From a virus: a stretch of 64,000 bases of DNA. Of this stretch, positions 11,113 through 28,171 are shown one piece after another. Under the pieces are notes generated by a model. The model saw only the letters and a list, made by a program, of their open reading frames with translations. It was not told the origin of the DNA and made no database searches. The stretch lies in the IMG/VR virus record IMGVR_UViG_3300050821_003619, positions 1 through 64,000 of that record. One strand, given 5' to 3'. A program made the position numbers and the translations under genes. Each line of letters starts with the position of its first letter. Position 1 is the stretch's first letter.

Positions 11113-11122
11113 TTAAATCTTT

Positions 11123-11668: not shown

Positions 11669-11671
11669 AAT

Positions 11672-12025: not shown

Positions 12026-12035
12026 TCTGAGTCTC

Positions 12036-12305: not shown

Positions 12306-12416
12306 GCTTCCTCTTTTTATTTCGTAATGCTTGAATCTCGTTAGGGTCCAATGCGGTATCGCCTGCCTCACTAGCAAAGTAGTAAGGGTTCAACAAAGGG
12401 TCAATTATCTCTTCCA
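12265..12416 (-). CDS. Small hypothetical protein
   Basis: 50 residues from ATG 12416, ending in a basic tail that overlaps the start of the membrane protein gene by 41 nt. The acidic N-terminus (MEEIIDPLLNPYYFASEAGD) resembles small phage head-tail region proteins. The start has a poor ribosome binding site. The 12417-12522 stretch before it shows no gene, only a short GACAG/CTGTC inverted repeat. Confidence 0.45.
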
Positions 12417-12522
12417 TTTGACAGTTGCCTGTCGAGCAGAATTCAAGACCACCAGACAGCGCTCGATGAGCCGACTTTTTGGTCAAGGCCCACGGCGCAT
12501 TTAGCGCGTTCGGACAACAAAA

Positions 12523-12549
12523 AAGGGTAGACCCTGTTGGGCCTACCCT
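12523..12549 (-). terminator. Rho-independent terminator after the glycosyltransferase gene
   Basis: On the minus strand a stem AGGGTAG.CCC / GGG.CTACCCT with one mismatch is followed directly by TTTTTTG. It lies 98 nt after the glycosyltransferase stop. The intervening 12550-12647 holds no gene. Confidence 0.75.
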
Positions 12550-12647
12550 CGTGTGTATAACTAACAATTTTGGTGGACAATGACGGCTACGCTCCGTCCT
12601 CCCTCGGGTGCAAGCCGAGAGTTTTCCTGAATAAACTAATCGCCCAC

Positions 12648-13742
12648 TTAAAATGGTTCTGTGTAACGAAAGAATTTTATTAATCGTTCAAAGAAATTTT
12701 CTTTCTTACCATAAAGGAAATGAAACCATTTTTCAATACTTCTTTTATTGTGCTTAATCAAGGCTTTCGTGCCTTGTATCGCTGCATCGTCTCTTAATAA
12801 CAAGTTGATGCCTACTTCAGATATTTCTACCGCGTCATCGGCATCGGCTTTCCATGAATCTGGAGCCCAATATATCGCAGATGATACCACAGAAGGTACA
12901 CCGGCCAACACTCCGTCTGCCGTTACCATGTTGAAGGATTCCGTATAAGAAACCTGAATCAACAAATCCATGCTGCTTACCAGATGAATGAATTGATCCC
13001 ATGGCTGCCAGTTATGACGTACAAGGGTGAACCCCGGTATATTGTCGGTCATCTGGCCTATAGCTGGAGAAACTCTACCTTGGTCTCCTTCTCCACCGGA
13101 AGACATATGAAACTCTACAGGTACTTGAAGTTCTTTTTGTATAAGAACTGCAGCCGCTGTAGCAGTCATAAAGTTCTTCTCGGGACGTACTGCACCAAAT
13201 GCGCCGATCTTTATAGGACTAACACCGTCCCACGGCTCTTTTTGGCGCTGATATGTCAGCGGATAAAGATTAGGGAGAAGAACCGCTTCTCTCTCGTATG
13301 CTTTTTCAAACCACTCTACAAATCTTTCAGAGTTGCCACCAACTTTTAAGTTAGGATATTTCTCCGAAAGTTCTTGGTACTTTCTCAATAACTCTACACC
13401 TTCTGGGTCAGCTTGCAGAAACCCAACGTTTGAGTGAGAAAGTATAACAAATTCTATGTCTTTAAAATTTTTAACTAGAGACTTTAAATCATGAAGGCTA
13501 AGCCAAGGAGCAGATATAACTACGTGCGTGAGAGGCTTATCGTGGGTTTCGTTGTATTTATCAACGGCATGCACAATATCAACGTTGTGCCTTACAGGGA
13601 ACACGGTGACATCCACTCCGTATTCTCTTAGTACTTGCGCTGTGGTAAACCCTGCTACATTCAGTCCAACACAGCTAGTTCTTATCCATGCAGCAAAATC
13701 TTTAAATACCAGCGCTAATCTTACGTCTTCTGCCTTCTTCAT
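12648..13742 (-). CDS. Glycosyltransferase, GT-B fold (GT4-like)
   Basis: 364 residues. The C-terminal half carries the family hallmarks: a strand-turn KIGAFGAVRPEKNF (about 180-193), where group 1 transferases bind the nucleotide sugar, and a YTESFNMVTADGVLAGVPSV motif (about 270-289), the E...(x7)...E-type donor-binding region. The N-terminal half is a Rossmann-like acceptor domain. Such phage enzymes usually glycosylate phage DNA or surface sugars to escape host defence; the substrate cannot be read here. ATG at 13742 follows AAGGATTAG. Terminator at 12523-12549. Confidence 0.82.
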   Translation of the reverse strand: MKKAEDVRLALVFKDFAAWIRTSCVGLNVAGFTTAQVLREYGVDVTVFPVRHNVDIVHAVDKYNETHDKPLTHVVISAPWLSLHDLKSLVKNFKDIEFVILSHSNVGFLQADPEGVELLRKYQELSEKYPNLKVGGNSERFVEWFEKAYEREAVLLPNLYPLTYQRQKEPWDGVSPIKIGAFGAVRPEKNFMTATAAAVLIQKELQVPVEFHMSSGGEGDQGRVSPAIGQMTDNIPGFTLVRHNWQPWDQFIHLVSSMDLLIQVSYTESFNMVTADGVLAGVPSVVSSAIYWAPDSWKADADDAVEISEVGINLLLRDDAAIQGTKALIKHNKRSIEKWFHFLYGKKENFFERLIKFFRYTEPF

Positions 13743-13762
13743 CTAATCCTTCTGGGGAAAGA

Positions 13763-13797
13763 GGGATTGCCGGGGTTCCTTTACGACGCCCAATCCC
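13763..13797 (-). other. Hairpin in the leader between the RNA array and the glycosyltransferase gene
   Basis: A 7-bp stem GGGATTG / CAATCCC encloses a GC-rich loop about 20 nt before the glycosyltransferase start codon. It could end array transcripts or shield the 5' end of the mRNA. No T-run. Confidence 0.35.
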
Positions 13798-13816
13798 GGC
13801 GCGGACGTTTACAAAT

Positions 13817-13857
13817 TGGTTGCGGCCTCCGGTAACGCTCCTAGGAGACCGCAAAAT
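13817..13857 (-). ncRNA. CCA-tailed mini-hairpin, last member of the RNA array
   Basis: On the minus strand TTGCGG-T-CTCC pairs with GGAG-G-CCGCAA (10 bp plus one mismatch, 13-nt loop) and is followed directly by CCA then ATTTG. Every tRNA in the array also ends in CCA followed by an ATTTT-type spacer. It is too short for a tRNA and looks like a minihelix or a decayed tRNA. Confidence 0.4.
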
Positions 13858-13934
13858 TGGGTGCGGGAGCGAGAATCGAACTCGTCCATGTGATGCTTAT
13901 GAGACATCCGTAGCCACCAGACTACGTTCCCGCA
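13858..13934 (-). tRNA. tRNA-Met/Ile (anticodon CAT)
   Basis: Full cloverleaf with encoded CCA. Anticodon loop CTCATAA; canonical elbow (G18G19 and TTCGATT T-loop). Position 1-72 is a T-A pair, so it is not a typical initiator tRNA; elongator Met, or Ile with a modified C34, fits. Confidence 0.85.
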
Positions 13935-14190
13935 ATTTATACTCAATTATCCTGTGACAGTTAGCACACAATAGTATGCACTTCTTTAATTCCTCTAAAA
14001 TGCTTTCTCTACTATGTCTAAAAATTCCTGCACTAAGATTAAATCTTTTTGTGTCTGGGTTTACATGGTGAAAATCCATAACATACGATGGGAATTTATT
14101 GCCGCATCTGTTACATGGTTTATTTTTATATGTATCCAGCCACTCTCTTCGTTTCTTTATTGCCTTCTTAACTGTGCTATACGTGCTCAT
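13897..14190 (-). CDS. HNH endonuclease between tRNA genes
   Basis: 97 residues from ATG 14190. Zinc/HNH pattern: CNRCG, DFHHVNPDTK, then LLCANCHRIIEYKL. The gene runs into the downstream tRNA: the last 38 nt, including the TAA stop, lie in the tRNA-Met gene, and the stop codon is formed by the anticodon loop (CATAA). The upstream ribosome binding site is only an A/G-rich run. It is probably a selfish element lodged in the tRNA array. Confidence 0.75.
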   Translation of the reverse strand: MSTYSTVKKAIKKRREWLDTYKNKPCNRCGNKFPSYVMDFHHVNPDTKRFNLSAGIFRHSRESILEELKKCILLCANCHRIIEYKLRERSLVATDVS

Positions 14191-14266
14191 CTTTTCTCTT
14201 TTCCGCAGAAAGATGAACAAGTGCGTCCGCAACCACCTGAGTTTTATCGTCTCAGGAACGTCAAAA

Positions 14267-14342
14267 TGGGGTGAGCAGTAGGATTCGAACCTACATAAGC
14301 CAATTTAGAAGATTGGTGCACGGTCCCTTATGCCATGCTCAC
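14267..14342 (-). tRNA. tRNA-Arg (TCT)
   Basis: Acceptor GTGAGCA/TGCTCAC, anticodon loop CTTCTAA, TTCGAAT T-loop, encoded CCA. Confidence 0.92.
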
Positions 14343-14349
14343 GTAAAAT

Positions 14350-14427
14350 TGGTCGGCGCGGGAGGATTTGAACCTCCATATACTCGCGTCCAAGGCGAGG
14401 GGGTTAGCCAGATTACCCAACACACCG
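14350..14427 (-). tRNA. tRNA-Pro (TGG)
   Basis: Anticodon arm CTCGC-CTTGGAC-GCGAG, T-loop TTCAAAT, encoded CCA. The acceptor stem has two G-T wobbles. Confidence 0.9.
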
Positions 14428-14442
14428 AAAATTGTCTCATTA

Positions 14443-14662
14443 GGAACAGGCGAAAACAGAGCGGGAATCAACGTATTGACTACGCTGCTGTAGTTTCATC
14501 CGTGTATTCACCCTAAAGTATCGCCCGGAGGTGATTACTGTGAGTGACGGCTACAGGCTTCCCTAGCATTTTTAGACGTGCCTAGCGTTCCATACGGAGT
14601 TGACTGCCACCGAAGTGTCAGTGGTTTGCGTCATCAAGTATGAAGTATCTGTTTTCTACGCC
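14443..14662 (-). ncRNA. Candidate Y RNA 1 (long form)
   Basis: Bounded by the shared elements of this family: 5' GGCGTAG, an 8-bp terminal helix GAAAACAG / CTGTTTTC, ATACTTC inside it, and 3' GCCTGTTCC. About 185 nt of further hairpins lie inside (for example CAC-TTCG-GTG, TCACC/GGTGA). In vertebrate and bacterial Y RNAs, as I recall, Ro60 binds a conserved bulged terminal helix of this kind. It lies 340 nt downstream of the Ro60-like gene (15003-16319). The interior has no tRNA-like T-arm, unlike candidate 2. Confidence 0.6.
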
Positions 14663-14685
14663 ATAATGAAAATTTATTAGATGCA

Positions 14686-14802
14686 GGAACAAGCGGTCAC
14701 AGAGATTTTAGCGCTCTGCCACTAAGCTACGGAGACCGAAGTCTCCGGTGGGAGTCGAACCCACGCCTCTTCATTAGCAGTGAAGTAACTGTGTCCTACG
14801 CC
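14686..14802 (-). ncRNA. Candidate Y RNA 2 with a full tRNA-like domain (YrlA-like)
   Basis: Same outer elements: GGCGTAG, helix GGACACAG/CTGTGACC (one mismatch), TTACTTC, 3' GCTTGTTCC. The interior is a circularly ordered tRNA: anticodon arm CTTCA-CTGCTAA-TGAAG, T-arm GTGGG-TTCGACT-CCCAC, 7-bp acceptor CGGAGAC/GTCTCCG closed by a TTCG tetraloop, then the D-arm. As I recall it, this is the architecture of bacterial YrlA Y RNAs, whose module mimics a tRNA. The closed acceptor means it cannot be charged as it stands. The anticodon-like triplet is GCT (Ser); a normal tRNA-Ser(GCT) also exists at 16846. Confidence 0.75.
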
Positions 14803-14823
14803 ATGCAATCTAAACTTAAAATT

Positions 14824-14895
14824 TGGTCGCCCCGCTGAGAGCAACCTCAGCCACCCTCCCCAATGGGAGTCGTGCCGCACTTACACCACAGAGCG
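14824..14895 (-). tRNA. tRNA-like, irregular (Pro TGG-like?), possible pseudogene
   Basis: Acceptor CGCTCTG/CGGGGCG (two wobbles) and encoded CCA are fine, but the anticodon loop is 6 nt (CATTGG) and the T-loop is 6 nt (GTTGCT), each one short of normal. Identity uncertain. Confidence 0.45.
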
Positions 14896-14905
14896 AACTC
14901 ATCGT

Positions 14906-14986
14906 GGGAACAAACGATTACAGAGATTATAAGCTCGTATTAGGAGCTTCTCTTGTTAATGGTAAGAAGTAACTGTAATCTACGCC
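14906..14986 (-). ncRNA. Candidate Y RNA 3 (short form)
   Basis: GGCGTAG, perfect 8-bp helix GATTACAG / CTGTAATC, TTACTTC, 3' GTTTGTTCCC. Interior: a 6-bp hairpin AAGCTC/GAGCTT and an irregular CTTCTT hairpin. It begins 16 nt downstream of the Ro60-like gene, so the two are probably co-transcribed. Confidence 0.65.
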
Positions 14987-15002
14987 ACACAAACTTTATA
15001 AC

Positions 15003-16319
15003 TTATTCGTTTTCGTAAGCCTGAATCCAATTTACTACAGATTCCGACCATCCGTCAAGGTGGCTCCATTTTCCGTATCCGATACCGTTCTGATAAGAAG
15101 CCACATTGATCACGTATCCTACACCGTTAGGTGTAGATACTGTCTGATGCGATTGCTCATCAGTAACGATGATGATACGGTCGTAACCACGGGCATCAGC
15201 TACTCTTTTCGCTGATTCCGTGTTGGTTGACCCGTGGCTTGTAGCGTTCTTAATTGCATCTCGAAGCGCAAAACCTCTACGGGCTGGAACCAAAACGGGA
15301 GAATTTGAAAACGAAAGAACTTCTACGTCTTCACAAATCTCACGAAGGAGAATAGCCAGAGCACAAGCCGCATCACTGCGGTCGATCTCACTCTTTGCCG
15401 AAACTGGGGTACCGTACATGCTACCAGAGTTATCTACAAGAAGAATCGTCTTGCCCTTTAGCTTAGGCATCTTCTCCAATGCCTTGAACATAGCCTGCTC
15501 TAATTCAGGCTCTAGGTCTGGGGCATACTTCGCCGCAGAAATGAATCTGAATGGCAGCACTCTGCTCACATCAATCTTTCTCAAGGCGCTCTTGATCAGC
15601 GTCTTGCTTACCCCAGACTGCTCCATATTGCGAAGGTTACGCAATAGAGCCAACGCTCCAAGCTTCTCTTCTTCGATCAGTCGCGTAAAGGTTTCACCCT
15701 TGTCAGCGCCTCCTGAGAGAGCAACTTCCCACGTATCTGGCGTCTTCAATTCGTTATTGACAACCTTCTTGAAAAGCTTTTCCTGTTTCTTATTCTCAGG
15801 CTTAGCGTGAGAAAGGAAAAGAACATCGCGCAGCTTTACTGCACCGTCACGGTTGTACTTAGCAAGTGCATACTCTTCGAACTTACCGAAGGCTCGCGCC
15901 AATCCACGCTTACTCTGCGCTGATAAAGGCTCCTTGCCGTCTTTCCAATAGATTGCCACGTACTCAGTCAACTCATCTGGGCGCTGAATTACGCGTTCCA
16001 GAAGTTCCGCTACGTACTGACGCTCAGTCACTTTTGGGTGACGGGCCAGTTCACGCGCTAACAATAGAGGTACGTGACGTAGCTTCATTTCTTCTCTCGC
16101 CTTAACAGCGATGTCAGCTACGGTTTTGCCGGGAAGCGAGTGCACCAGCGTCTTAATACGCTCTGCGATTGCCTGCCCGTCTTCATAAAATTGGTCTTCC
16201 CAAAGCATGCACGCCATTACTGAGCGCTCTAATTCTTTTGCTTTGGTGATTTTCTTTGCAACTGCACCTTCATGTGTGAAGATAGGTGCAGACTTTACTG
16301 CTCTGTTTAGGGTAGCCAT
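15003..16319 (-). CDS. rsr: Ro60/Rsr protein (TROVE domain plus vWA domain)
   Basis: 438 residues from ATG 16319, with AGGAG 5 nt before it. The N-terminal two thirds is the helical-repeat TROVE ring: HSLPGKTVADIAVKAREEMK, then RHVPLLLARELARHPKV and KRGLARAFGKFEEYALAKYN are classic segments. The C-terminal third is a von Willebrand A domain with the MIDAS motif DNSGSM and later TDEQ. Ro proteins bind misfolded RNAs in the ring and Y RNAs on its outer face, and in bacteria tether exonucleases such as PNPase. The gene sits inside the tRNA array with five candidate Y RNAs around it, three of them immediately downstream. The MIDAS residues look intact. Confidence 0.9.
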   Translation of the reverse strand: MATLNRAVKSAPIFTHEGAVAKKITKAKELERSVMACMLWEDQFYEDGQAIAERIKTLVHSLPGKTVADIAVKAREEMKLRHVPLLLARELARHPKVTERQYVAELLERVIQRPDELTEYVAIYWKDGKEPLSAQSKRGLARAFGKFEEYALAKYNRDGAVKLRDVLFLSHAKPENKKQEKLFKKVVNNELKTPDTWEVALSGGADKGETFTRLIEEEKLGALALLRNLRNMEQSGVSKTLIKSALRKIDVSRVLPFRFISAAKYAPDLEPELEQAMFKALEKMPKLKGKTILLVDNSGSMYGTPVSAKSEIDRSDAACALAILLREICEDVEVLSFSNSPVLVPARRGFALRDAIKNATSHGSTNTESAKRVADARGYDRIIIVTDEQSHQTVSTPNGVGYVINVASYQNGIGYGKWSHLDGWSESVVNWIQAYENE

Positions 16320-16363
16320 AAACACTCCTGAGTCAAATTTATACTTCTACTGCCGAACAAAAT

Positions 16364-16439
16364 TGGCATGAGATGCAGGATTCGAACCCGCACGATTCGT
16401 TTTGGAGACGAACATGCTGCCGTTAAACATCAATCTCAT
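16364..16439 (-). tRNA. tRNA-Trp (CCA)
   Basis: Acceptor ATGAGAT/ATCTCAT, anticodon loop CTCCAAA, G18G19 with TTCGAAT, encoded CCA. Confidence 0.92.
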
Positions 16440-16442
16440 ATA

Positions 16443-16518
16443 TGGAGCGAAGCACGAGATTTGCACTCGTTCCGTTTGGTTGGAAGCCAAACATGCTGCT
16501 GTTAAACACCAGCCTCGC
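16443..16518 (-). tRNA. tRNA-Gly (TCC), altered elbow
   Basis: Anticodon loop CTTCCAA. The D-loop is AACAGCAG where tRNA-Trp next to it has AACGGCAG, and the T-loop is TGCAAAT: A18 with G55. Encoded CCA. Confidence 0.88.
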
Positions 16519-16519
16519 G

Positions 16520-16593
16520 TGGAGCGAACTGAGAGAATCGCACTCTCGCCTAGTCGTTGGCAACGACCGGTTCTACTACTAAACTAAGCTCGC
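16520..16593 (-). tRNA. tRNA-Gly (GCC), altered elbow
   Basis: Anticodon loop TTGCCAA; D-loop AGTAGTAG (A18), T-loop TGCGATT (G55); encoded CCA. Confidence 0.88.
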
Positions 16594-16664
16594 TCAAGTA
16601 GCCGAAGGCGACACCCAACGACATCTGCGGGGAATTACAACGCTGAATCAGCTACTAAATAAAA
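16594..16664 (-). ncRNA. Unclassified structured stretch between tRNA genes
   Basis: Ends pair as AGTAGCT / GGCTACT and an inner hairpin GCTGA/CAGC is present. No CCA and no standard tRNA arms. Could be a decayed tRNA or a small RNA. Confidence 0.25.
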
Positions 16665-16741
16665 TGGCGACCTGTATGGGATTCGAACCCATGATCTGTC
16701 CCGTGACAGGGGACTGGGGACAGCCACTCCCCTAACAAGCC
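16665..16741 (-). tRNA. tRNA-Asp (GTC)
   Basis: Anticodon arm GTCCC-CTGTCAC-GGGAC, canonical TTCGAAT T-loop, encoded CCA; two G-T wobbles in the acceptor stem. Confidence 0.9.
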
Positions 16742-16742
16742 G

Positions 16743-16836
16743 TGGACGAGAGTGCGAGATTCGAACTCGCGGCCCCTTTCATCAAGGAAGCGGCGGTTTT
16801 CAAGACCGTTGCATTAATCCGCTCTGCCAACTCTCG
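16743..16836 (-). tRNA. tRNA-Ser (TGA)
   Basis: Class II with a long variable arm; anticodon loop CTTGAAA; acceptor CGAGAGT/ACTCTCG; canonical elbow; encoded CCA. Confidence 0.92.
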
Positions 16837-16845
16837 GTTTCAAAC

Positions 16846-16938
16846 TGGATGAGAGTAAGGGATTCGAACCCTTGGACCCCATTGCTGGGCATCACATGTT
16901 TAGCAAACATGCTCGATAAACCACTCTGACAACTCTCA
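16846..16938 (-). tRNA. tRNA-Ser (GCT)
   Basis: Class II; anticodon arm CATGT-TTGCTAA-ACATG; canonical elbow; encoded CCA. Confidence 0.92.
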
Positions 16939-17037
16939 ATAAATTTTGTGAGGCTGAGAGGTAACGAATGCTCTCAATTAAGTTTTAACGTTCATGCTTA
17001 CGCAATTTACGGCGCTACCGTACAACACCTCTAAACT
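16939..17037 (-). ncRNA. Unclassified structured stretch
   Basis: Contains TGAGAG/CTCTCA and AGAGGT/ACCTCT pairings and CGGTAGCGCCG. No CCA end and no recognisable anticodon arm. Possibly a decayed tRNA. Confidence 0.25.
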
Positions 17038-17113
17038 TGGTCACTCATGCGGAAGTCGAATCCGCGTCACTTCCTTGAGAGGGAAGTATCCTAAGCCACT
17101 AGACGAATAAGTG
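17038..17113 (-). tRNA. tRNA-Glu (CTC)
   Basis: Anticodon arm CTTCC-CTCTCAA-GGAAG; canonical elbow (GTGGCT, TTCGACT); encoded CCA. Confidence 0.9.
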
Positions 17114-17169
17114 ATAGATGTGGATTTCGCAGTGCTGCCCACATCGGCCTGCACTCGGCCTTTGCAAAA

Positions 17170-17244
17170 TGGAGGTCCCACAGGGAATTGCACCCTGATC
17201 TAAAAGTTCGTAGCTTTTCATCCTATCTGTTGAACGATAGAACC
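17170..17244 (-). tRNA. tRNA-Arg (ACG), altered elbow
   Basis: Anticodon arm AAAAG-CTACGAA-CTTTT; D-loop AACAGATAG (A18), T-loop TGCAATT (G55). A34 would need deamination to inosine for normal decoding. Between this gene and tRNA-Glu(CTC) lies only a GATGTGG/CCACATC hairpin (about 17115-17142). Confidence 0.85.
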
Positions 17245-17253
17245 TCATAAAAT

Positions 17254-17320
17254 CGGTGCCGCAGAAACTTATTGCTTTTCTTTGTACTTCAGCATTGAGC
17301 AACATCGGTTACCCTGCGGC
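17254..17320 (-). ncRNA. tRNA-like element with CCG end
   Basis: Perfect 7-bp end stem GCCGCAG/CTGCGGC, one overhanging A, then CCG in place of CCA. Only 67 nt, and the arms do not fold as a standard tRNA. Probably a decayed or reshaped tRNA. Confidence 0.35.
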
Positions 17321-17327
17321 TAAAATT

Positions 17328-17371
17328 TGGGTGGGTTTTTTACGGTCTTCTCAGAATCCAATACCCACCCC
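17328..17371 (-). ncRNA. CCA-tailed mini-hairpin
   Basis: 8-bp stem GGGTGGGT/ACCCACCC with a loop near 26 nt; the 3' strand ends in CCCA followed by AATTTT, the same spacer as after the tRNAs. Far too short for a tRNA. Confidence 0.35.
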
Positions 17372-17391
17372 ATCTTCAAGATTCATAAATT

Positions 17392-17467
17392 TGGTGTCTC
17401 GTGCGGGATTCAAACCCGCGTCAAAAGCTTGAAAGGCTTCCATCCTAGATCACTAGACGAACAAGAC
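17392..17467 (-). tRNA. tRNA-Glu (TTC), altered elbow (A19-U56)
   Basis: Anticodon loop CTTTCAA. The D-loop reads AGTGATC (A19) and the T-loop TTTGAAT (T56): the usual G19-C56 pair is changed to A19-U56. Encoded CCA. Confidence 0.88.
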
Positions 17468-17468
17468 A

Positions 17469-17543
17469 TGGCTCCTACCGCTGGATTCGAACCAGCACCC
17501 TACGCATTAACAGTGCGCTATCCTGCCGTTAGACCAGATAGGA
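17469..17543 (-). tRNA. tRNA-Asn (GTT)
   Basis: Anticodon arm GCGCA-CTGTTAA-TGCGT; D-loop AACGGCAG and T-loop TTCGAAT are canonical; encoded CCA. Confidence 0.92.
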
Positions 17544-17558
17544 ACATTACAATTAAAT

Positions 17559-17646
17559 TGGTGCACGCTGATGGATTCGAACCACCAATAGCTCTTAGAG
17601 CCGGGAGGGTTACAGCCTCCTGCAATAGCCGTTATGCGAAACGTGC
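17559..17646 (-). tRNA. tRNA-Tyr (GTA)
   Basis: Class II with variable arm; anticodon arm GGAGG-CTGTAAC-CCTCC; canonical elbow; encoded CCA. Confidence 0.9.
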
Positions 17647-17653
17647 ATTTAAA

Positions 17654-17728
17654 TGGTGACCACTGGAGCGCTCGCATCTCCGTCCACGGGGTTTCAATCC
17701 GTTGCTATGCTATCTCAGCTAAGAGGCC
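17654..17728 (-). tRNA. tRNA-Phe (GAA), altered elbow
   Basis: Anticodon loop TTGAAAC; D-loop GATAGCAT (A18), T-loop TGCGAGC (G55); one mismatch in each of the acceptor, anticodon and T stems, so it is the weakest of the assigned set. Encoded CCA. Confidence 0.7.
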
Positions 17729-17742
17729 ATAAAATTTATTCA

Positions 17743-17799
17743 CGGGAACAAACGTGTACGGTGTATTTTCATCCAAAGAAGTAACCGTACACAACACCA
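17743..17799 (-). ncRNA. Candidate Y RNA 4 (minimal form)
   Basis: Perfect 8-bp helix GTGTACGG / CCGTACAC with TTACTTC inside and 3' GTTTGTTCCC, as in the other members. The 5' flank reads GGTGTT where the others have GGCGTA. Only about 23 nt lie inside the helix, so this would be a Y RNA reduced to the Ro-binding stem. Confidence 0.5.
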
Positions 17800-17807
17800 C
17801 GCAAATA

Positions 17808-17881
17808 TGGAAGCCCCGCAAGGATTTGCACCTTGGTTAGAAAGGTCAAAGCTTTCCGTCCTGCTCTTGAACGACAGGGCT
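17808..17881 (-). tRNA. tRNA-Gln (TTG), altered elbow
   Basis: Anticodon arm GAAAG-CTTTGAC-CTTTC; D-loop AAGAGCAG (A18), T-loop TGCAAAT (G55); encoded CCA. Confidence 0.88.
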
Positions 17882-17889
17882 ATAAAAAT

Positions 17890-17967
17890 TTGAGGCAGGA
17901 TTTACATACGTTGCAGTTCCATTATCCAACGTAAGACCTAAATACCGAATGGATGCGGTTGCCTCAA
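17890..17967 (-). ncRNA. Unclassified three-way-junction RNA in the array
   Basis: 8-bp closing helix TTGAGGCA/TGCCTCAA, one arm ACCG/CGGT and one 7-bp arm TACGTTG/CAACGTA. No anticodon arm, no T-arm and no CCA. Similar length to a tRNA but not one. Confidence 0.4.
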
Positions 17968-17970
17968 AAC

Positions 17971-18044
17971 TGGTAGGCAAGGAGTGAGTTGCACACTCAT
18001 TTCACTCTAATCAGGAGTGCTGTCTGCTGTTGACGTACTCGCCT
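17971..18044 (-). tRNA. tRNA-Ile (GAT), altered elbow
   Basis: Anticodon arm CACTC-CTGATTA-GAGTG; D-loop AACAGCAG (A18), T-loop TGCAACT (G55); encoded CCA. Confidence 0.9.
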
Positions 18045-18045
18045 A

Positions 18046-18131
18046 TGGTCCGAAAGAAGAGAGTCGAACTCTTATGCATTTACTGCGGCAGTTTTTGAGA
18101 CTGCTGTGTCTGCCTGTTCCACCACTCTCGG
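18046..18131 (-). tRNA. tRNA-Leu (CAA)
   Basis: Class II; anticodon arm GCAGT-CTCAAAA-ACTGC; D-loop with AGGCAG and T-loop TTCGACT, canonical; encoded CCA. Confidence 0.92.
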
Positions 18132-18140
18132 ATTTAAAAT

Positions 18141-18225
18141 TGGTCTCGAAGATGGGACTCGCACCCATACGCCTGACGGCAGAAGTTTTTAAGACTTCCG
18201 TGTCTGCTAATTCCACCACGACGAG
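18141..18225 (-). tRNA. tRNA-Leu (TAA), altered elbow
   Basis: Class II; anticodon arm GAAGT-CTTAAAA-ACTTC; D-loop AATTAGCAG (A18), T-loop TGCGAGT (G55); two acceptor mismatches; encoded CCA. Confidence 0.85.
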
Positions 18226-18227
18226 AT

Positions 18228-18303
18228 TGGCTGGCCGTCAAGGACTTGCACCTCGACCATTCGGGTCAGAGCCGAACGTTCTGCTATTAAAAACTAACAG
18301 CCA
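18228..18303 (-). tRNA. tRNA-Gln (CTG), altered elbow
   Basis: Anticodon arm TTCGG-CTCTGAC-CCGAA; D-loop AATAGCAG (A18), T-loop TGCAAGT (G55); encoded CCA. Confidence 0.88.
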
Positions 18304-18312
18304 ATAAAAATT

Positions 18313-18389
18313 TGGAGTACGTTGCAGGATTCGAACCTGCGCCTAGACGGGTTGCAGCCGTCCGCGTTTAGCCTCTTCGCCAAACGTAC
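18313..18389 (-). tRNA. tRNA-Cys (GCA)
   Basis: Perfect acceptor GTACGTT/AACGTAC; anticodon arm GACGG-CTGCAAC-CCGTC; canonical elbow; encoded CCA. Confidence 0.92.
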
Positions 18390-18390
18390 A

Positions 18391-18465
18391 TGGAGGGCAC
18401 GCGAGAAATCGAATCTCTTTCACGCGGGGTCACAACCCGGTGGCTACACCAGTTGCTACGCGCCC
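18391..18465 (-). tRNA. tRNA-His (GTG)
   Basis: Anticodon loop TTGTGAC on a 4-bp stem; D-loop ACTGGTG and T-loop TTCGATT, canonical; encoded CCA. Confidence 0.85.
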
Positions 18466-18471
18466 TAAAAT

Positions 18472-18550
18472 TGGTACACCGGGTTGGATTCGCACCAACG
18501 GTAATCCTTCTTTGTAAGAGAAGGGGCTTCGTCTCCTTGCCCACCAGTGT
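18472..18550 (-). tRNA. tRNA-Val (TAC), altered elbow
   Basis: Anticodon arm CTTCT-CTTACAA-AGAAG; D-loop AAGGAGACG (A18), T-loop TGCGAAT (G55); encoded CCA. Confidence 0.87.
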
Positions 18551-18553
18551 ATG

Positions 18554-18590
18554 GTGCAATCCTATAGATTGCACAACCGTATTTCTACGG
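18554..18590 (-). other. Two short hairpins between tRNA-Val and tRNA-Thr(CGT)
   Basis: GTGCAAT/ATTGCAC (7 bp, 7-nt loop) next to CCGTA/TACGG capped by a GAAA tetraloop on the minus strand. Possibly a small RNA or processing spacer. Confidence 0.35.
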
Positions 18591-18602
18591 GGAGTCGTAA
18601 AT

Positions 18603-18680
18603 TGGAGCCTAAGACTGGGAATCGCACCCAGTACAACCTCTTTACGAGAGAGGTATTCTAGCATCTTAAATTACTCAGGC
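18603..18680 (-). tRNA. tRNA-Thr (CGT), G55
   Basis: Acceptor GCCTGAG/CTTAGGC; anticodon arm CCTCT-CTCGTAA-AGAGG; T-loop TGCGATT (G55). The D-loop (AAGATGCTAG) does not show a clean A18G19. Encoded CCA. Confidence 0.8.
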
Positions 18681-18695
18681 ATAAAACTCTATTTA

Positions 18696-18784
18696 GGGAA
18701 CAAGCGAATACAGGAAAGGCACCAGCCCTTGCTACGGAATCGAACCGCTCGCTCTATATGCAAGAAGTACCTGTTTTCTACGCC
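18696..18784 (-). ncRNA. Candidate Y RNA 5 with a partial tRNA-like domain
   Basis: GGCGTAG, helix GAAAACAG/CTGTATTC (one mismatch), GTACTTC, 3' GCTTGTTCCC. Inside is a T-arm-like GCGG-TTCGATT-CCGT and a 6-bp acceptor-like stem AAGGGC/GCCTTT closed by TGGT, but no D-arm: a shortened version of candidate 2. Confidence 0.6.
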
Positions 18785-18795
18785 ACTAAATAAAC

Positions 18796-18870
18796 TGGAG
18801 CCACTGGTAGGAGTTAAACCCACACACGCCAAGGTACAAGCTTGGTGCACTGTCATTATGCTACAGTGGC
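18796..18870 (-). tRNA. tRNA-Thr (TGT), altered elbow (A19-U56)
   Basis: Perfect acceptor GCCACTG/CAGTGGC; anticodon arm CCAAG-CTTGTAC-CTTGG; D-loop AATGACAG (A19), T-loop TTTAACT (T56); encoded CCA. Confidence 0.88.
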
Positions 18871-18871
18871 A

Positions 18872-18945
18872 TGGAGCCCAAGGATGGAATCAAACCATCG
18901 TTGCTCCCTTACCAAGGGAGAGTTCTATCACTGAACTACAAAGGC
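18872..18945 (-). tRNA. tRNA-Thr (GGT), altered elbow (A19-U56)
   Basis: Anticodon arm CTCCC-TTGGTAA-GGGAG; D-loop AGTGATAG (A19), T-loop TTTGATT (T56); two acceptor mismatches; encoded CCA. Confidence 0.85.
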
Positions 18946-18956
18946 AATAAAAATAA

Positions 18957-19272
18957 TACTAACTCTGTAAGCAGGATTCTGTCAATGGAATATTTTCCAC
19001 CGGACAATCATTCGTCTTAGCTTTCAACCCGATGGCTCCCCGAGCAGGATCACTGCCATCCTATTTGAAATTGCTGCCCCTAGAGATTGCCCGTTTCACT
19101 CCCACTCAAGGGATTCGTCACTGTTGCTCTTATCGTAGCCTCGCGGCTCCCGCAGCTTCCACGGTAGGGTGCTCTTTGCAGTCCTGACTTTCCTCACCTT
19201 AAGATGAAGCGCTCCGCAAGGTATTAACCACACAGTGCTTGATCCGATAAGGCGCGATTGTCTGAGTTAGTA
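18957..19272 (-). ncRNA. rnpB: RNase P RNA (bacterial A-type-like)
   Basis: About 316 nt. P1 is TACTAACTC (19264-19272) pairing with its complement at 18957-18965. In order on the minus strand: CAGACAATCG (P2 5' side), GAGGAAAGTCAGGAC (conserved region I / P4), GGGAGTGAAACGGGCAA, TTTCAAATAGG, ACGAATGATTGTCC (region IV / P2 3' side) and ACAGAATCCTGCTTA (region V / P4 3' side). These match bacterial rnpB landmarks one after another. RNase P RNA is the ribozyme that trims tRNA 5' ends, so the phage appears able to process its own array. It is shorter than most cellular versions. I did not see an obvious GGTAA-type CCA-binding loop. Confidence 0.9.
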
Positions 19273-19278
19273 TAAAAT

Positions 19279-19368
19279 TGGTATGGAAGATACTCTAGGA
19301 GTAGTCACCTTTGACTTTCAGCCTGCTCGCTACATCCACGTCACTTTTGCAGGATATCGGAACATCTT
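19279..19368 (-). ncRNA. Unclassified CCA-ended RNA
   Basis: Between RNase P RNA and tRNA-Leu(TAG). Stems CCTGC/GCAGG, AGTCA-AAGG-TGACT, TACTC-CTA-GAGTA and a closing AAGAT/ATCTT; the 3' end is CCATACCA followed by ATTTT. Not foldable as a tRNA. Confidence 0.4.
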
Positions 19369-19373
19369 AAAAT

Positions 19374-19460
19374 TGGTGCGCCTAGAGGGACTTGCACCCC
19401 CACGGCTGTTAACCACTGGAGTCTAAATCCAGCGCGGCTGCTAAATTACGCCATAGACGC
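19374..19460 (-). tRNA. tRNA-Leu (TAG), altered elbow
   Basis: Class II; anticodon arm CTGGA-TTTAGAC-TCCAG; D-loop AATTTAGCAG (A18), T-loop TGCAAGT (G55); encoded CCA. First tRNA of the array. Confidence 0.9.
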
Positions 19461-19724
19461 ATTTAAAATTTTAGAGCACAGGCGAGGCTGAGGGACTAGG
19501 CCAGTCAGCCTCGGGTGCTTTTCTTCGAAAGAGTGCGTCTTACACAATATGTTGCGCCAGCTCGAAATACGAAGATAAACGTTGGGCGTATACCTTGTTG
19601 CGATACCATCTACTTCTAGACTTAGCCCAATCTGAATCCCGGCCCTCAACCAAAAAGGAGTAAAGGGAGAGCCGGGAGGACGCGAATGCGTCTACAATGT
19701 GATGTACGCCTTATTTGAGGGTAC
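19461..19724 (-). ncRNA. Structured leader RNA of the array
   Basis: About 260 nt from the likely transcription start to tRNA-Leu(TAG). Hairpins: GACGC-ATTC-GCGTC, CCCGGC/GCCGGG around an A/T-rich loop, and a long AGCAC..GAGGCTGA/TCAGCCTC..GTGCT stem just before the first tRNA. No protein frame is convincing. It may be an independent ncRNA or a leader removed by processing. Confidence 0.5.
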
Positions 19725-19730
19725 AGTATT

Positions 19731-19759
19731 ACTATACCATAACTAAGTGAATTTGTCAA
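19731..19759 (-). promoter_or_regulatory. Strong sigma70-type promoter for the RNA array
   Basis: Minus strand: TTGACA, 17-nt spacer, TATAGT, ending about 270 bp before tRNA-Leu(TAG). Near consensus. Confidence 0.85.
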
Positions 19760-19817
19760 GTAAAAAATGCAGAGTCAACGCAAAAAATAAAGTTTAAATA
19801 TGGAATGACATTTACGT

Positions 19818-19847
19818 ATCATACTGATTTAAAACGAGTTATATCAA
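19818..19847 (-). promoter_or_regulatory. Second possible minus-strand promoter
   Basis: TTGATA, 18-nt spacer, TATGAT, upstream of the main array promoter. Confidence 0.45.
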
Positions 19848-19863
19848 AAATCTAAAACCGTAT

Positions 19864-19891
19864 CTTATAGTAAATACACGGGTTATATCAA
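19864..19891 (-). promoter_or_regulatory. Third possible minus-strand promoter
   Basis: TTGATA, 16-nt spacer, TATAAG. Its -35 region repeats the sequence around the 19842-19847 box (TTGATATAACYCGT), so the two look like duplicated promoter or operator units. Confidence 0.4.
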
Positions 19892-19892
19892 C

Positions 19893-19921
19893 TTGACTTT
19901 CGAGGTAAGTCGTGCGATACT
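19893..19921 (+). promoter_or_regulatory. Promoter for the rightward replication block
   Basis: Plus strand: TTGACT, 17-nt spacer, GATACT, 87 bp before the first rightward gene. The region 19760-20007 is A/T rich and otherwise gene free, the divergent control region between array and replication genes. Confidence 0.6.
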
Positions 19922-20007
19922 AGAATCGTTTCCCCCCGGTAATACTATATACTACATATGGTTCTATAAGAATCAATCACTTACTTGTTAAAGTATAGGG
20001 GCAGTAA

Positions 20008-20313
20008 GTGGTTATTGTCAATAGGTATTTGCTAAGCATTGAAAATAAACAACTTATGAAGCTATCTACACGCACTCCAGATTCAATTTCCAAGAAAAGA
20101 CAGGAGCTTAGAAGGCAAATAGCCCTCTGGCAAGATCGAATAGAAGCCATAAAGCTTTCTCTTTCAATAACTTCAGAAGAGAAGGCAGAAAAACTGAAAC
20201 AAGCCTACACGGAACTCAAAGCTTTAAATGCTTCAATGAACGAGACTTTTGTCGGTCGGCACCGATCCATCAACTTCAGCAAGACCAGAAAGCTCTACCC
20301 CGGCGTTTGGTAA
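20008..20313 (+). CDS. Small basic helical protein
   Basis: 101 residues from GTG 20008 (AGGGG upstream); ATG 20056 is an alternative start. The middle is a long basic helix (KKRQELRRQIALWQDRIEAI) and the C-terminus is basic. It is the first gene of the rightward block, just before DNA polymerase, so it may be a replication or regulatory factor. No family recognised. Confidence 0.5.
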   Translation: MVIVNRYLLSIENKQLMKLSTRTPDSISKKRQELRRQIALWQDRIEAIKLSLSITSEEKAEKLKQAYTELKALNASMNETFVGRHRSINFSKTRKLYPGVW

Positions 20314-20315
20314 CG

Positions 20316-20334
20316 TGCCGCAAACTTTGCGGCA
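20316..20334. repeat. 19-bp palindrome TGCCGCAAACTTTGCGGCA, copy 1
   Basis: Perfect inverted repeat (9 + 1 + 9) in the gap before the DNA polymerase gene. An identical copy lies inside the ParB-like gene at 43706-43724. It could act as a hairpin in RNA or as a protein-binding site in DNA. Confidence 0.75.
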
Positions 20335-20357
20335 GGTCATAATTTCAAAAGGACAAA

Positions 20358-22841
20358 TTGGAAAATCAGACTCAGCACAAGAAGCTCGTTCTTTCCGAGC
20401 TTAAGCCTCCAATGAACATCACGTTCATCACAAACAAGGACGGCTTAAAAAAATTAAGAGACTTCTTTGAACGTAAGAAGGCAGAACCCGTTCCTTATAC
20501 CGGCTTCGATACCGAGACCAACATCACGGTAGACTTCTGGAATAGACGTGTTCGCACAATGCAGTTTGGAGACAAGAACGAACAATACGTTATTGATCTG
20601 CTCTCGTTTGCCGGTTCTAGAGAAAAATTAATAGAGACGCAGGGCAACTATGGAGCTAACTGCGGCGACACGTACAAAGATATCATAGACATCATCGAGC
20701 CTGTGTTGTGTTCTAATGCGTTTCTAAAAATAGGACAGAACCTAGGATTCGAATACGAAGTGATGCGCTGGAACTTCGGCTTGCGTATCTGGCATTTGTA
20801 CAGCATGGACTTTGCTGAGCGTGTAATGCAGGCCGGAAGAATATCTCTTAAGAAGTACAGCGAGTTTTCTATGTTTGAAATCTTTAAAAGATATTTCAAA
20901 CTAGAGATCGATAAAGAGAAGCAGAAGACATTCGATATAGAAACACCTCTCACACAAGAACAAATTGAGTATGCCGCATTTGATATTCGTTCACCAATCT
21001 CTGTGTGGCAGGCCCAGCAACGCATTCTAGAGCGTGATCAACTAATAACAACTGCTACTATCGAGAATGAAGCTATCGGAAGTTATGTTGACATGCACTT
21101 GCATGGACAAAACTTAAACGATGAAAAATGGATCGAACGCATCAAGGCAACGCAACTTCGACGCATCGAAGAAGTTAAAATTCTAGATGCATCTTTTTTG
21201 CCGATAGTAGGACACAAAGACAACCAGATTGATGAAGATGAAATTAATCGTCTTGAGCTGGTCTGGAAAACAGAGTTTGAAGAAGCAACAGAAGCAGAAA
21301 AAGAACAAGCTGCCGCTGTACGATTGGAGAAGGACCCAGTAAAGAAAGCAGAACTAAAAGCTGTTCTGAAAAATCTACAGCTTCATCGTAGGCTAATGAA
21401 AGCGTCTGCTCGTGCTGCGTACTCAGAAAAAAGCAAAGCACGCACTGAGTGGAAAAAAGAATATCCCAAGTGTGAAGGCGAAGCTTACATTAATTACGGT
21501 TCCAATGCACAACTTTTACAGACTTTGAGAAAGTTCCCCGGCATGGGTGCAATAGAAAGTGTCGGAGACGAAGTATTGCTGAAATTTAACGACCGGCCAA
21601 TCATTCAGACTTTGCGTAAATATCGTAAAGGTAAGAAGGACACCGGCACGTATGGTATGCAGTGGGTCACTCGCTGGGTAAACAAGCCATGCAAAGAAGA
21701 AGGCTTCAGGCATCCCGGTGACGGTCGTCTACATTGCACCTTCAACCAGCTTGAGGCAGAAACGGGACGAAGCTCTTCATCGAAACCGAATGCTCAGAAC
21801 CTTCCAAAAGAAAAAGAAGTACGTGATTGTTTCATATGTGATCCACCAGATTTTAATGAACCAGATGGTTACGTAATTGTAACGTGCGACATGTCTGGTG
21901 CTGAGTTGAGAATTATTGCTGACTTAGCGAATGCAACTTCGTGGATCATGGCTTTCAACAAAGGCTGGGACGTTCACTCTGTCTCTACTGAAATTCTTGA
22001 GCGTAAACAGTGGGAAGAGGGAACAGAAGCTGGATGCGCGTACTACGAAAAAGATGACAAAGGTGAATTAAAGCGTCAAAAGTGCAAATGCAAAATTCAC
22101 AAGAAACTTCGTGATAACACCAAGGCCATTAACTTCTTGTTGTGTTACGGTGGAGGACCAGATGCACTGGCTGACCAGCTAGACATCACCGTAGACGCTG
22201 CAAAAGAATTGATGAAACAGCACGAAGCTGCATTTCCTGATGTGTGGAACTTCTTGTACCGCTCTGGTGAAGAAGCCAAGCGAGATAAAGAATCCCGCGA
22301 TATGTATGGTCGTAGAAGATCGTTCCCTACGCCCACATATGAAAGTGCTAAGCAGTGGATTTTGGATGATGATGATAGAATGGAGAAGCTGGAACTTCCT
22401 GAGGAACAACAAAAAGAAAACATTCTTCAGTTCAAGTTACAGAATCTGCGTGAGCCTAACAAAGAAGAAATTTCCAAGTTAACACATCGTAATCCAACAG
22501 ACTCAGAAATTCGTTGGGCTATGAAATCCATGATGGGTTCTATTTCTCGTCGTGGTAAAAATCATCGCATTCAAGGTACCAACGCTTCAATCATCAAGAG
22601 AGCTATGGGCTCAGGATTTGATGCCAATGGAAAGCCTTACCTATGGCACACTCTGCCACAATTCAAAGCTAAGTTGCTCAGCATGGTGCATGACGAATTG
22701 ATTATTCAGTGCCCCAAGAGATTCGGTGAGCAGGTTAAAGCTTTGGTTGGAGATGCGTTCAAACGTGCAGCAGCGGAAGTTATGCACAAAGTAGAAATGA
22801 CCTTTGAAGGTCACATTGCTGACCGTTGGGTTAAAGAATAA
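20358..22841 (+). CDS. polA: DNA polymerase, family A (Pol I type) with 3'-5' exonuclease
   Basis: 827 residues, TTG start with AAAAGGA upstream. N-terminal DEDDy exonuclease: GFDTETN (about 48-54), KIGQNLGFEYE (about 123-133), YAAFDIRSPISVW (about 207-219). Polymerase: motif A VTCDMSGAELRIIADL, motif B (O helix) RDNTKAINFLLCYG with Phe at the sugar-selecting position, motif C SMVHDELIIQ. An unusual charged insert lies at about 300-355 (EEATEAEKEQAAAV). There is no 5' nuclease domain. It is the replicative polymerase, first large gene of the replication block. Confidence 0.93.
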   Translation: MENQTQHKKLVLSELKPPMNITFITNKDGLKKLRDFFERKKAEPVPYTGFDTETNITVDFWNRRVRTMQFGDKNEQYVIDLLSFAGSREKLIETQGNYGANCGDTYKDIIDIIEPVLCSNAFLKIGQNLGFEYEVMRWNFGLRIWHLYSMDFAERVMQAGRISLKKYSEFSMFEIFKRYFKLEIDKEKQKTFDIETPLTQEQIEYAAFDIRSPISVWQAQQRILERDQLITTATIENEAIGSYVDMHLHGQNLNDEKWIERIKATQLRRIEEVKILDASFLPIVGHKDNQIDEDEINRLELVWKTEFEEATEAEKEQAAAVRLEKDPVKKAELKAVLKNLQLHRRLMKASARAAYSEKSKARTEWKKEYPKCEGEAYINYGSNAQLLQTLRKFPGMGAIESVGDEVLLKFNDRPIIQTLRKYRKGKKDTGTYGMQWVTRWVNKPCKEEGFRHPGDGRLHCTFNQLEAETGRSSSSKPNAQNLPKEKEVRDCFICDPPDFNEPDGYVIVTCDMSGAELRIIADLANATSWIMAFNKGWDVHSVSTEILERKQWEEGTEAGCAYYEKDDKGELKRQKCKCKIHKKLRDNTKAINFLLCYGGGPDALADQLDITVDAAKELMKQHEAAFPDVWNFLYRSGEEAKRDKESRDMYGRRRSFPTPTYESAKQWILDDDDRMEKLELPEEQQKENILQFKLQNLREPNKEEISKLTHRNPTDSEIRWAMKSMMGSISRRGKNHRIQGTNASIIKRAMGSGFDANGKPYLWHTLPQFKAKLLSMVHDELIIQCPKRFGEQVKALVGDAFKRAAAEVMHKVEMTFEGHIADRWVKE

Positions 22842-22855
22842 GTGAAAGAGAAGAA

Positions 22856-24508
22856 ATGTCCGAGAAAATGAGTCACTTCGCGCAGACAATCATGGAACAG
22901 AAATACAGCCATGATCTGCGCGAAGGCGGTAAAGAAACGTGGGACAATATATCCCATAGAGTAGGGACAACGGTGCTTCGAACAGTCGGGGCACCCAAGT
23001 CTCTTATTGATCAAACTGTTGAGTACATAAAACAGAGAAAATTTATTCCCGGTGGACGGTACTTGTACGCGACTAAACGCCCGTATCACCAAGTTCAAAA
23101 CTGCCTCTTAATGAAAGCGGAAGATTCCCGCGAAGGCTGGTCGGAGTTGATGCAAAAAGCGACCATGGCTCTCATGACTGGGGCAGGAATAGGCATTGAC
23201 TACTCAGATATACGCGCAGAAGGAAAATCAATACGTAAAACCGGTGGGTTCGCTACCGGCCCTCTAGCTCTAATGCAAATGGTCAATGAAGCTGGTAGAG
23301 GAATTATGCAAGGAGGTTCCAGACGCTCCGCTATTTGGGCGGGATTAAAATGGAATCATCCTGATGTAACAAAATTTTGTCTCATGAAGAACTGGATTCC
23401 TGAAGTGCGTGAGATGAAGCTGAAAGATTTTAATTTTACAGCCACTATGGACGGGACCAATATAAGCGTGCAACTTGACGATGACTTCTTTGAAGCATTT
23501 AACAATGATAAGCACCCACAGAATTCACTCGCTCACTCTGTATATTGGACAGTTGTAGAACGTATGCTTAAAACGGCTGAACCGGGATTCAGCATTGATT
23601 GCGGGAAAAATTCAAAGGAGACACTACGCAATGCTTGCACTGAAGTTACGTCTGCTGATGATAGTGACGTTTGTAATCTCGGCTCAATCAACATGGCACG
23701 CGTGGAGTCGCTTGAAGAAATGGGAGCGTTATTGGAATGCGCTATTGCTTTTCTTCTTGCTGGCACTGTTTACAGCGACGTTCCTTATGCCAAGGTAGAT
23801 CAGATTCGTACAAAGAATCGCAGGCTTGGATTAGGGCTGATGGGCATTCACGAGTGGCTTCTTCTGCACGGTAAAAAATATGGTGCCGATTCAGAGTTAG
23901 ACAAGTATTTAGAAATTTACGCAACTAGTACAAAAGTGGCACATGACTACGCAAAAAAGTGGGACTTGTCTTCACCGGTCAAGACCCGAGCTATTGCACC
24001 AACAGGAACAATTGGAATTATTGCAGAGACTACAACTGGCATCGAACCTATCTTTTGTTCGGCTTTTAAACGTAGATATCTCAAAGGTGGAACGTGGAAT
24101 TTCCAATATGTCCTTGATCCAACAGCTAAAAGACTAATAGAAGAAAAAAATGTTCGACCAGAGGACATAGAAGATGCCTATGAGTTGGCAAGAGACGCTA
24201 ACGTTGAAAGACGCGTTGCGTTCCAAGCACATGTACAAAGTTACGTTGACCATGCCATATCAAGTACAATTAATTTGCCAGAATGGGGTTCCGAGTCTAA
24301 CAATAGAGACACAGTCCAACGATTCGGCAGGATGCTTATTAAATACCTGCCCAAACTGCGGGGACTCACTTGTTATCCCGATGGTGCTAGAGGGGGCCAG
24401 CCTTTGACTCCAGTAAAGTATTTGACGGCAGTTAAACACGTTGGTGAAATATTCGTGGAACACATGGATGTATGCGATTTGACGAAAGGCGGATCATGTG
24501 GCAGTTAA
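22856..24508 (+). CDS. nrdJ: Ribonucleotide reductase, class II (adenosylcobalamin-dependent)
   Basis: 550 residues. Features of the ten-stranded barrel: QNCLLMKAEDS near the start, TGAGIGIDYSDIR, the NACTEV active-site cysteine region (about 262-267), DVCNLGSINMARV (about 274-286), and APTGTIGIIAETTTGIEPIF. The C-terminal CDLTKGGSCG tail carries the redox cysteine pair that hands electrons to the active site. No separate radical subunit follows, consistent with class II. It makes deoxynucleotides for phage DNA synthesis. Starts 15 nt after polA. Confidence 0.85.
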   Translation: MSEKMSHFAQTIMEQKYSHDLREGGKETWDNISHRVGTTVLRTVGAPKSLIDQTVEYIKQRKFIPGGRYLYATKRPYHQVQNCLLMKAEDSREGWSELMQKATMALMTGAGIGIDYSDIRAEGKSIRKTGGFATGPLALMQMVNEAGRGIMQGGSRRSAIWAGLKWNHPDVTKFCLMKNWIPEVREMKLKDFNFTATMDGTNISVQLDDDFFEAFNNDKHPQNSLAHSVYWTVVERMLKTAEPGFSIDCGKNSKETLRNACTEVTSADDSDVCNLGSINMARVESLEEMGALLECAIAFLLAGTVYSDVPYAKVDQIRTKNRRLGLGLMGIHEWLLLHGKKYGADSELDKYLEIYATSTKVAHDYAKKWDLSSPVKTRAIAPTGTIGIIAETTTGIEPIFCSAFKRRYLKGGTWNFQYVLDPTAKRLIEEKNVRPEDIEDAYELARDANVERRVAFQAHVQSYVDHAISSTINLPEWGSESNNRDTVQRFGRMLIKYLPKLRGLTCYPDGARGGQPLTPVKYLTAVKHVGEIFVEHMDVCDLTKGGSCGS

Positions 24509-27657: not shown

Positions 27658-27714
27658 AAATAGCCCCGTAGGAACTTAGGATAAAACCTAGGCTCTTACG
27701 GGGCTATTTTTTTT
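27658..27714. terminator. Bidirectional terminator between converging units
   Basis: Stem AAATAGCCCCGTA / TTACGGGGCTATTT with A/T runs on both sides (eight Ts on the plus side), between the tRNA-Lys(CTT) gene and the leftward operon. Confidence 0.9.
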
Positions 27715-27716
27715 GT

Positions 27717-28163: not shown

Positions 28164-28171
28164 GTTTTCTC

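Follow-up and report, generated by a model that had tools for sequence, protein, structure and literature searches.

An RNase P RNA gene within the tRNA array of a phage, and related RNAs in other viral contigs

RNase P RNA is an ancient RNA enzyme that trims tRNAs and is treated as a core cellular ribozyme. A stretch of 64,000 nucleotides from an IMG/VR virus record (positions 1 to 64,000 of IMGVR_UViG_3300050821_003619, 109,250 bases in all), here called the window, raises the question of whether a phage can carry this ribozyme inside its own tRNA array and, if so, what the RNA would do there. An earlier note on this DNA, made from the letters alone, had placed an RNase P RNA at positions 18,957 to 19,272, had called a phage copy rare, and had suggested that the ribozyme may be adapted to neighboring tRNAs with altered elbows. 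Here, we examine the identity of the RNA (hereafter P RNA), its recurrence and origin, and the functions that it may have.

A class A RNase P RNA in a phage tRNA array

A class A RNase P RNA is encoded in full on the minus strand at 18956-19273 (318 nt, counted from P1 to P1). Using the default filters of cmscan, the Rfam model RF00010 matched 18952-19227 (-) with 126.8 bits, whereas permissive filters applied to a short stretch regained the 5' end and gave a match at 18952-19273 (-) with 148.7 bits and an E-value of 4.7e-48. The latter score exceeds the Rfam gathering cut-off of 100, the match spans model positions 1-367, and the result of this Infernal check is thus far from a poor covariance score. 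Because the longer match takes in P1, in which 19264-19273 (5' strand) pairs with 18956-18965 (3' strand), the ends first proposed were right to within one base each and were closer than those of the default Rfam match. The two ends pair as P1, as had been claimed, through ten Watson-Crick pairs, and the landmarks follow each other in the expected order, with CR-I, P4, the GCAA/AAAUAGG region, L15 GGGU and CR-V in sequence. By its sequence and structure, the element at 18956-19273 is a member of the RNase P RNA family.

The structure model contains helices P1 to P9, stubs of P10 to P12, P15 to P17, and P19, all on the minus strand. The 5' strand of P2 (19256-19262) forms seven pairs with 19003-19009, as evaluated in the aligned test described below, and P3 is an extended hairpin at 19195-19254, identified from the structure model, the RF00010 alignment and covariation. 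The 5' strand of P4 in CR-I, with its bulged U (19182-19190), pairs with 18969-18976 in CR-V, and a P19-like hairpin was placed in J2/4 (18986-18999) from the structure model and the RF00010 alignment. All modeled pairs are standard in the window RNA, including those of P4 and of the P6 pseudoknot between L17 and J5/7 (GAGCA with UGCUC; 75.8% of cells paired in 14 rows). The pairs of the catalytic core are in place, with the bulged U of P4, CR-I, CR-V and P6 all present. Of the 55 columns with a conservation of 97% or more in 78 bacterial RNase P RNAs, the window RNA retains 50. Two of the five departing columns are gaps that were placed in the lost P18 region, the helix names being our own assignment. 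The GGGU of L15 is also kept; the GGU of this loop pairs with the CCA end of the tRNA.

In the RF00010 alignment, P13/P14 (43 model positions) and P18 (24 positions) are deleted from the window RNA. These helices are typical, but not universal, in bacterial class A RNase P RNA, and since P13/P14 are likewise missing from the sampled Burkholderiales rows, we do not regard P13/P14 and P18 as defining features. Other oddities are the A-U pairs in P4, a GGAAG loop in P8 and ACAGU instead of ACAGA. The minimum free energy z-score is modest (-2.21), as obtained from a folding program that models neither P4 nor P6.

Covariation was examined in an alignment of 14 sequences, comprising the window RNA, 12 viral P RNAs and one P RNA from Aquabacterium (A1). 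Standard pairs were observed in 87.1% of the 954 cells, compared with 66.2% after shuffling and 36-42% with slid partners, although the real pairing has an advantage over the slid versions here, as the window sequence served to derive the structure. Both sides were changed in 58 of the 76 pairs, and none of 500 shuffles reached the value of any of the five covariation measures, which together with the E-value rules out a chance or poor match. In P4 (eight pairs), 99.1% of the cells were paired and both sides were changed in three pairs, and in P2, the corresponding values were 96.9% and six of seven pairs. Pairing was poor in P16 (54.2%) and P17 (48.6%), which we think is at least partly due to misalignment. 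In an alignment-free test of 51 distinct viral P RNAs, the ends forming P1 gave a median score of 25.5, as compared to 13 for swapped partners, and 37 of the 51 lay beyond the 95% point of the null distribution (19). The same blind test was weak for P2, with 7 of the 51 above the null, so that P2 is significant only in the aligned test.

The surrounding array covers 12571-19460 (-) and contains 26 tRNAs identified by ARAGORN, each with an encoded CCA. Three more tRNA matches on the same strand were obtained from Rfam only (14746-14800, 17657-17728 and 18606-18680), and the earlier count of about 28 was thus a fair one. The P RNA is located about 100 nt from its upstream neighbor, tRNA-Leu(TAG) (19374-19460, -), and 10 nt from tRNA-Thr(GGT) downstream (18872-18945, -). 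The last bases of the 100-nt spacer at 19274-19373, ACCAATTTTA, repeat the CCA end of the upstream tRNA-Leu, and the spacer may be what is left of a further tRNA. Inside the array there is also a gene for a Ro60/TROVE-like RNA-binding protein (15003-16325, -; PF05731, 9.2e-17; phrog_850, 4.3e-51), for which the gap between the Asp and Trp tRNAs in a sister phage (L002) is too short.

Several lines of evidence assign this locus to a phage. A gene for the terminase large subunit, a mark of tailed phages, is located 8 kb from the P RNA (9445-11112, -; phrog_2, E-value 1.3e-19; phrog_979, 1.7e-17), and genes for a family A DNA polymerase, a ribonucleotide reductase, a DnaB-like helicase and a UvsX-like recombinase are found near the array. 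The terminase, the replication genes and the tRNA array rule out host DNA beside a provirus. A second IMG/VR contig (L005) corresponds to 10358-22922 of the window with no mismatches in 12,565 bases, which together with the synteny in the sister phages rules out an assembly chimera. The claim that a phage encodes an RNase P RNA inside its tRNA array is thus strongly supported by the RF00010 match, the covariation, the position in the array and the second contig.

The sister records (L002 and L007) show 68% identity to the window in the polymerase and share with it the tRNA order Thr(TGT)-Thr(GGT)-Leu(TAG). The distance between the Leu and Thr genes is 7 nt in the sisters, and according to the alignment it is here that the window carries the ribozyme and the spacer. 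RF00010 matched only one of seven related records, namely that of the second contig. The P RNA is thus absent from the Leu-Thr site of the sister phages, whose records are fragments and speak for this site only. Since the sisters have the same array without the P RNA, the comparison of sequences indicates that it is dispensable at the array site.

Elsewhere in the window, the region at 27700-35200 is long and poor in open reading frames, and a permuted, two-piece tmRNA is located at 48863-49219 (+; RF04321, 92.8 bits; tag ending in SVAA according to ARAGORN). RF04321 exceeded its cut-off in 9 of the 44 records examined, including a sister without a P RNA (G001).

Recurrence and origin of the viral RNAs

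Exact patterns run on 2.9 million viral contigs identified 90 stretches with CR-I, 55 with CR-V and 31 with the P4 variant, a pattern that selects one type of P4, and RF00010 had matches in 47 of the 50 records selected, with scores over the cut-off in 41. A strict scan for CR-I, the AAAUAGG region, CR-V and the P4 pairing yielded 51 distinct viral P RNAs in IMG/VR contigs, which is an undercount since the patterns demand exact motifs. With an array defined as three or more tRNAs on the same strand within 1.5 kb, 33 of the 51 are housed in tRNA arrays, and none of these 33 has a tRNA on the opposite strand within 1.5 kb. The next tRNA begins at most 30 nt from CR-V in 15 of 31 cases, and the upstream tRNA is located at most 60 nt from CR-I in 19 of 32. 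The description of such RNAs as rare therefore holds for the fraction of phage contigs that carry them, but not in the sense of an isolated case, since 33 different copies were found in tRNA arrays.

Eleven of the 51 have no tRNA array and were set aside by eye as likely provirus or host flank (L011, L013, L014, L016, L028, L030, L034, L038, L039, L047 and L097); they remain in the total of 51, with a viral label in the first tree below and a label of their own in the second. Another seven without an array were kept as viral (L019, L022, L045, L064, L070, L346 and L351). The terminase marker phrog_2 matched 19 of 48 records, 14 of them with at least 50 bits, and undercounts viruses, as this marker missed the window's own terminase and matched a helicase instead. 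In five further records, with 30 proteins scanned, structural phage families were identified in G053, G109, G019 and G050; in G046, the phage families were those of replication and metabolism only.

As a side observation, the second pair of P4 is often altered in the viral P RNAs, with TCGGG in 17, TCAGG in 8 and TCCCG in 1 of the 51, the TCAGG count being partly selected by the P4-variant search pattern. This is unlike the bacterial P RNAs, of which 92 of 104 have TCCGG.

BLAST, a weak tool for this RNA, identified no P RNA in a named phage isolate when 50,697 phage records were searched with several of the P RNAs. The searches returned tRNA matches, short matches, unannotated faecal records named "Bacteriophage sp." and bacterial-looking records. 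A record named Microcystis phage MaAM05 (MW495066) has a match to RNase P RNA; it was rejected as a phage with a P RNA because it looks bacterial (fabI, engB, glyS). Nor did we find a published phage-encoded RNase P RNA in searches of open-access literature. Large phages are similar in carrying translation genes, including tmRNA, in addition to tRNA arrays, as described in a survey of huge phages, in the main text of which RNase P is unmentioned under three spellings (PMC7162821). The protein-only enzymes HARP and PRORP catalyze the same reaction but contain no RNA, and phages are not mentioned in passages of a review of them.

The origin of the window RNA was inferred from two trees. In the first (92 rows), the starred set that includes the window (97/98) consists of Aquabacterium and 12 viral rows, and the viral label requires 12 changes, 7 of which are forced by starred branches. 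In the second (117 rows), Burkholderiales sequences were added, 12 short or odd-core viral forms were omitted and the added bacterial rows were thinned. Here, the window belongs to a six-row viral set (98/99), and the nested sets around it add five rows from the order Burkholderiales (100/97, 99/95 and 98/91). The viral rows that were not set aside as provirus require nine changes in this tree, four of which are forced. The trees imply that phages have acquired P RNAs several separate times; we claim no number since the bootstraps are unsettled and the branches long. It therefore seems that phages have made this cellular machinery their own more than once.

The comparison with bacterial copies that had been called for thus nests the window copy within Burkholderiales sequences, and the host of the window phage may well be a Burkholderiales bacterium, permuted tmRNAs like that of the window being of a kind that occurs in this group. 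The class A RNA (RF00010) of this order, which includes Aquabacterium and the nearest sampled cellular relatives, shares with the window RNA the core, P1-P9, P15-P17, the P4 and P6 pseudoknots and the missing P13/P14. The window copy differs in its location in a phage tRNA array, the lack of P18, the P19-like hairpin, the altered P4 pairs and the lack of rnpA in the record.

Potential functions of the window RNA

No RnpA was identified in any of 48 records, whereas 10 of 14 controls were positive, which means that the P RNA must act alone or with the RnpA protein of the host. We consider it likely, judging from the sequence, that the window encodes a functional Burkholderiales-type class A P RNA that is transcribed with the array and matures the phage tRNAs together with host RnpA. 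A cluster of four promoter-like sites, identified by a consensus scan, is located upstream of the array (19731-20021, -), including TTGACA-18-TATACT at 20021-19992 and TTGACA-17-TATAGT at 19759-19731; there were nine consensus matches in all versus 5.1 expected. No terminator-like site was detected between this cluster and the P RNA.

One hypothesis is that the P RNA is transcribed together with the tRNAs from promoters directly upstream of the array and, as no phage rnpA was found, probably binds the RnpA protein of the host. The resulting enzyme would cleave the 5' leaders of the phage tRNAs, and cleavage at the 5' end of tRNA-Thr(GGT) could also set or free the 3' end of the ribozyme itself. 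The maturation of tRNAs might in this manner be kept up at times of infection when the host enzyme becomes limiting or disappears. The presence of P RNAs in many phage contigs, on the same strand as the tRNAs, implies that phages carry a tRNA-maturing enzyme in addition to tRNAs and tmRNA. This opens the question of what the benefit may be, with host shut-off, competition for RnpA and escape from defences directed against host tRNA processing as candidates.

We also considered the possibility that the RNA is a decoy, which by its RNase P-like fold binds up the host RnpA and chokes the processing of host tRNAs, catalysis being secondary. A decoy would need no phage rnpA, and since the binding of RnpA requires much of the same fold, a similar covariation would be expected. 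However, the phage tRNAs also need RNase P, the place amid tRNAs suggests processing, and the bulged U of P4 and CR-V are kept although a mere binder may not need them, all of which makes this explanation improbable.

Another possibility, related to the adaptation proposed in the earlier note, is a specialized ribozyme whose evolution was coupled to that of phage tRNAs with altered elbows, which the host RNase P would cleave poorly. The altered elbows are real: T loops with G55 or U56 are found in 12 of the 26 array tRNAs, which places the window among the most altered loci. G55 occurs with A18 in nine of the 26 and U56 with A19 in three (the coupling was assessed by eye and is less clear for Val), as if the tertiary pairs had been exchanged from G18-U55 to A18-G55 and from G19-C56 to A19-U56. 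In a sister without a P RNA, only 3 of 15 tRNAs have altered T loops, and P12, a stub in the window RNA, and the lost P13/P14 are close to the T-loop binding site. Across loci, however, altered T loops are not associated with the P RNA (51 of 691 tRNAs at 38 loci with it, as compared to 18 of 206 at 14 loci without it), and the loss of P13/P14 is common to the Burkholderiales rows and need not be a phage adaptation. The proposed adaptation is thus not borne out in general, and although the window could be a special case, we find a co-adapted ribozyme as doubtful as a decoy. The T loop of tRNA-Ala(TGC) is AGCGTAG, unlike the canonical loop, both in the window (12571-12645) and in the sister L002 (4814-4888).

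Finally, the RNA could be a chance acquisition of a host rnpB that is in the course of decay, as its absence from the sister phages (which points to a recent arrival or easy loss) and its long branch in the tree might indicate, but decay would break pairs, whereas every modeled pair is standard, including compensating changes in P4 (A-U for C-G), and the relatives covary, so that we give this explanation very little weight.

Small forms of the viral RNA

Beyond the working ribozyme that we favor for the window, the viral set includes RNAs of much reduced size. The shortest cores from CR-I to CR-V were identified in L081 (144 nt), L022 (151 nt), L346 (155 nt) and L137 (158 nt). L081 is a P RNA of roughly 190 nt with an RF00010 score of 106.8 bits, in which 142 model positions are replaced by 4, so that most of the specificity domain is gone; tRNA-Glu and tRNA-Arg flank it so closely that only about one base is left over. 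The other short forms score below the gathering cut-off, for example L022 with 63.9 bits.

The isolated catalytic domain of RNase P RNA is reported to be active, and the type T RNAs of archaea to have a degenerate S domain, with modeling that gives P6 and no P18 (PMC5839562). L081 resembles type T as described there for Pyrobaculum in its degenerate S domain, the retention of P6 (assessed by eye) and the lack of P18, whereas the window RNA differs in that the S domain (P7-P12) is kept. Any likeness to type T would be convergent, since the phage forms are bacterial class A RNAs by sequence. We lean slightly toward the broader hypothesis that these RNAs form a recurrent and repeatedly acquired phage class of working array ribozymes, which would release themselves by cleaving the adjoining tRNAs, and of which some forms of about 190 nt, reduced to the catalytic domain, would represent a bacterial counterpart to type T. 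The smallest forms would then be natural ribozymes of the bacterial type without a specificity domain, which makes them useful for the question of how small an RNase P can be.

The phage with the smallest form has one more feature of relevance to tRNA maturation. None of its 11 array tRNAs has an encoded CCA, and the record of L081 contains a gene for a CCA-adding tRNA nucleotidyltransferase (L371, 7267-8349, -; phrog_2244, 1.9e-30), so that this phage has both a P RNA and a CCA enzyme.
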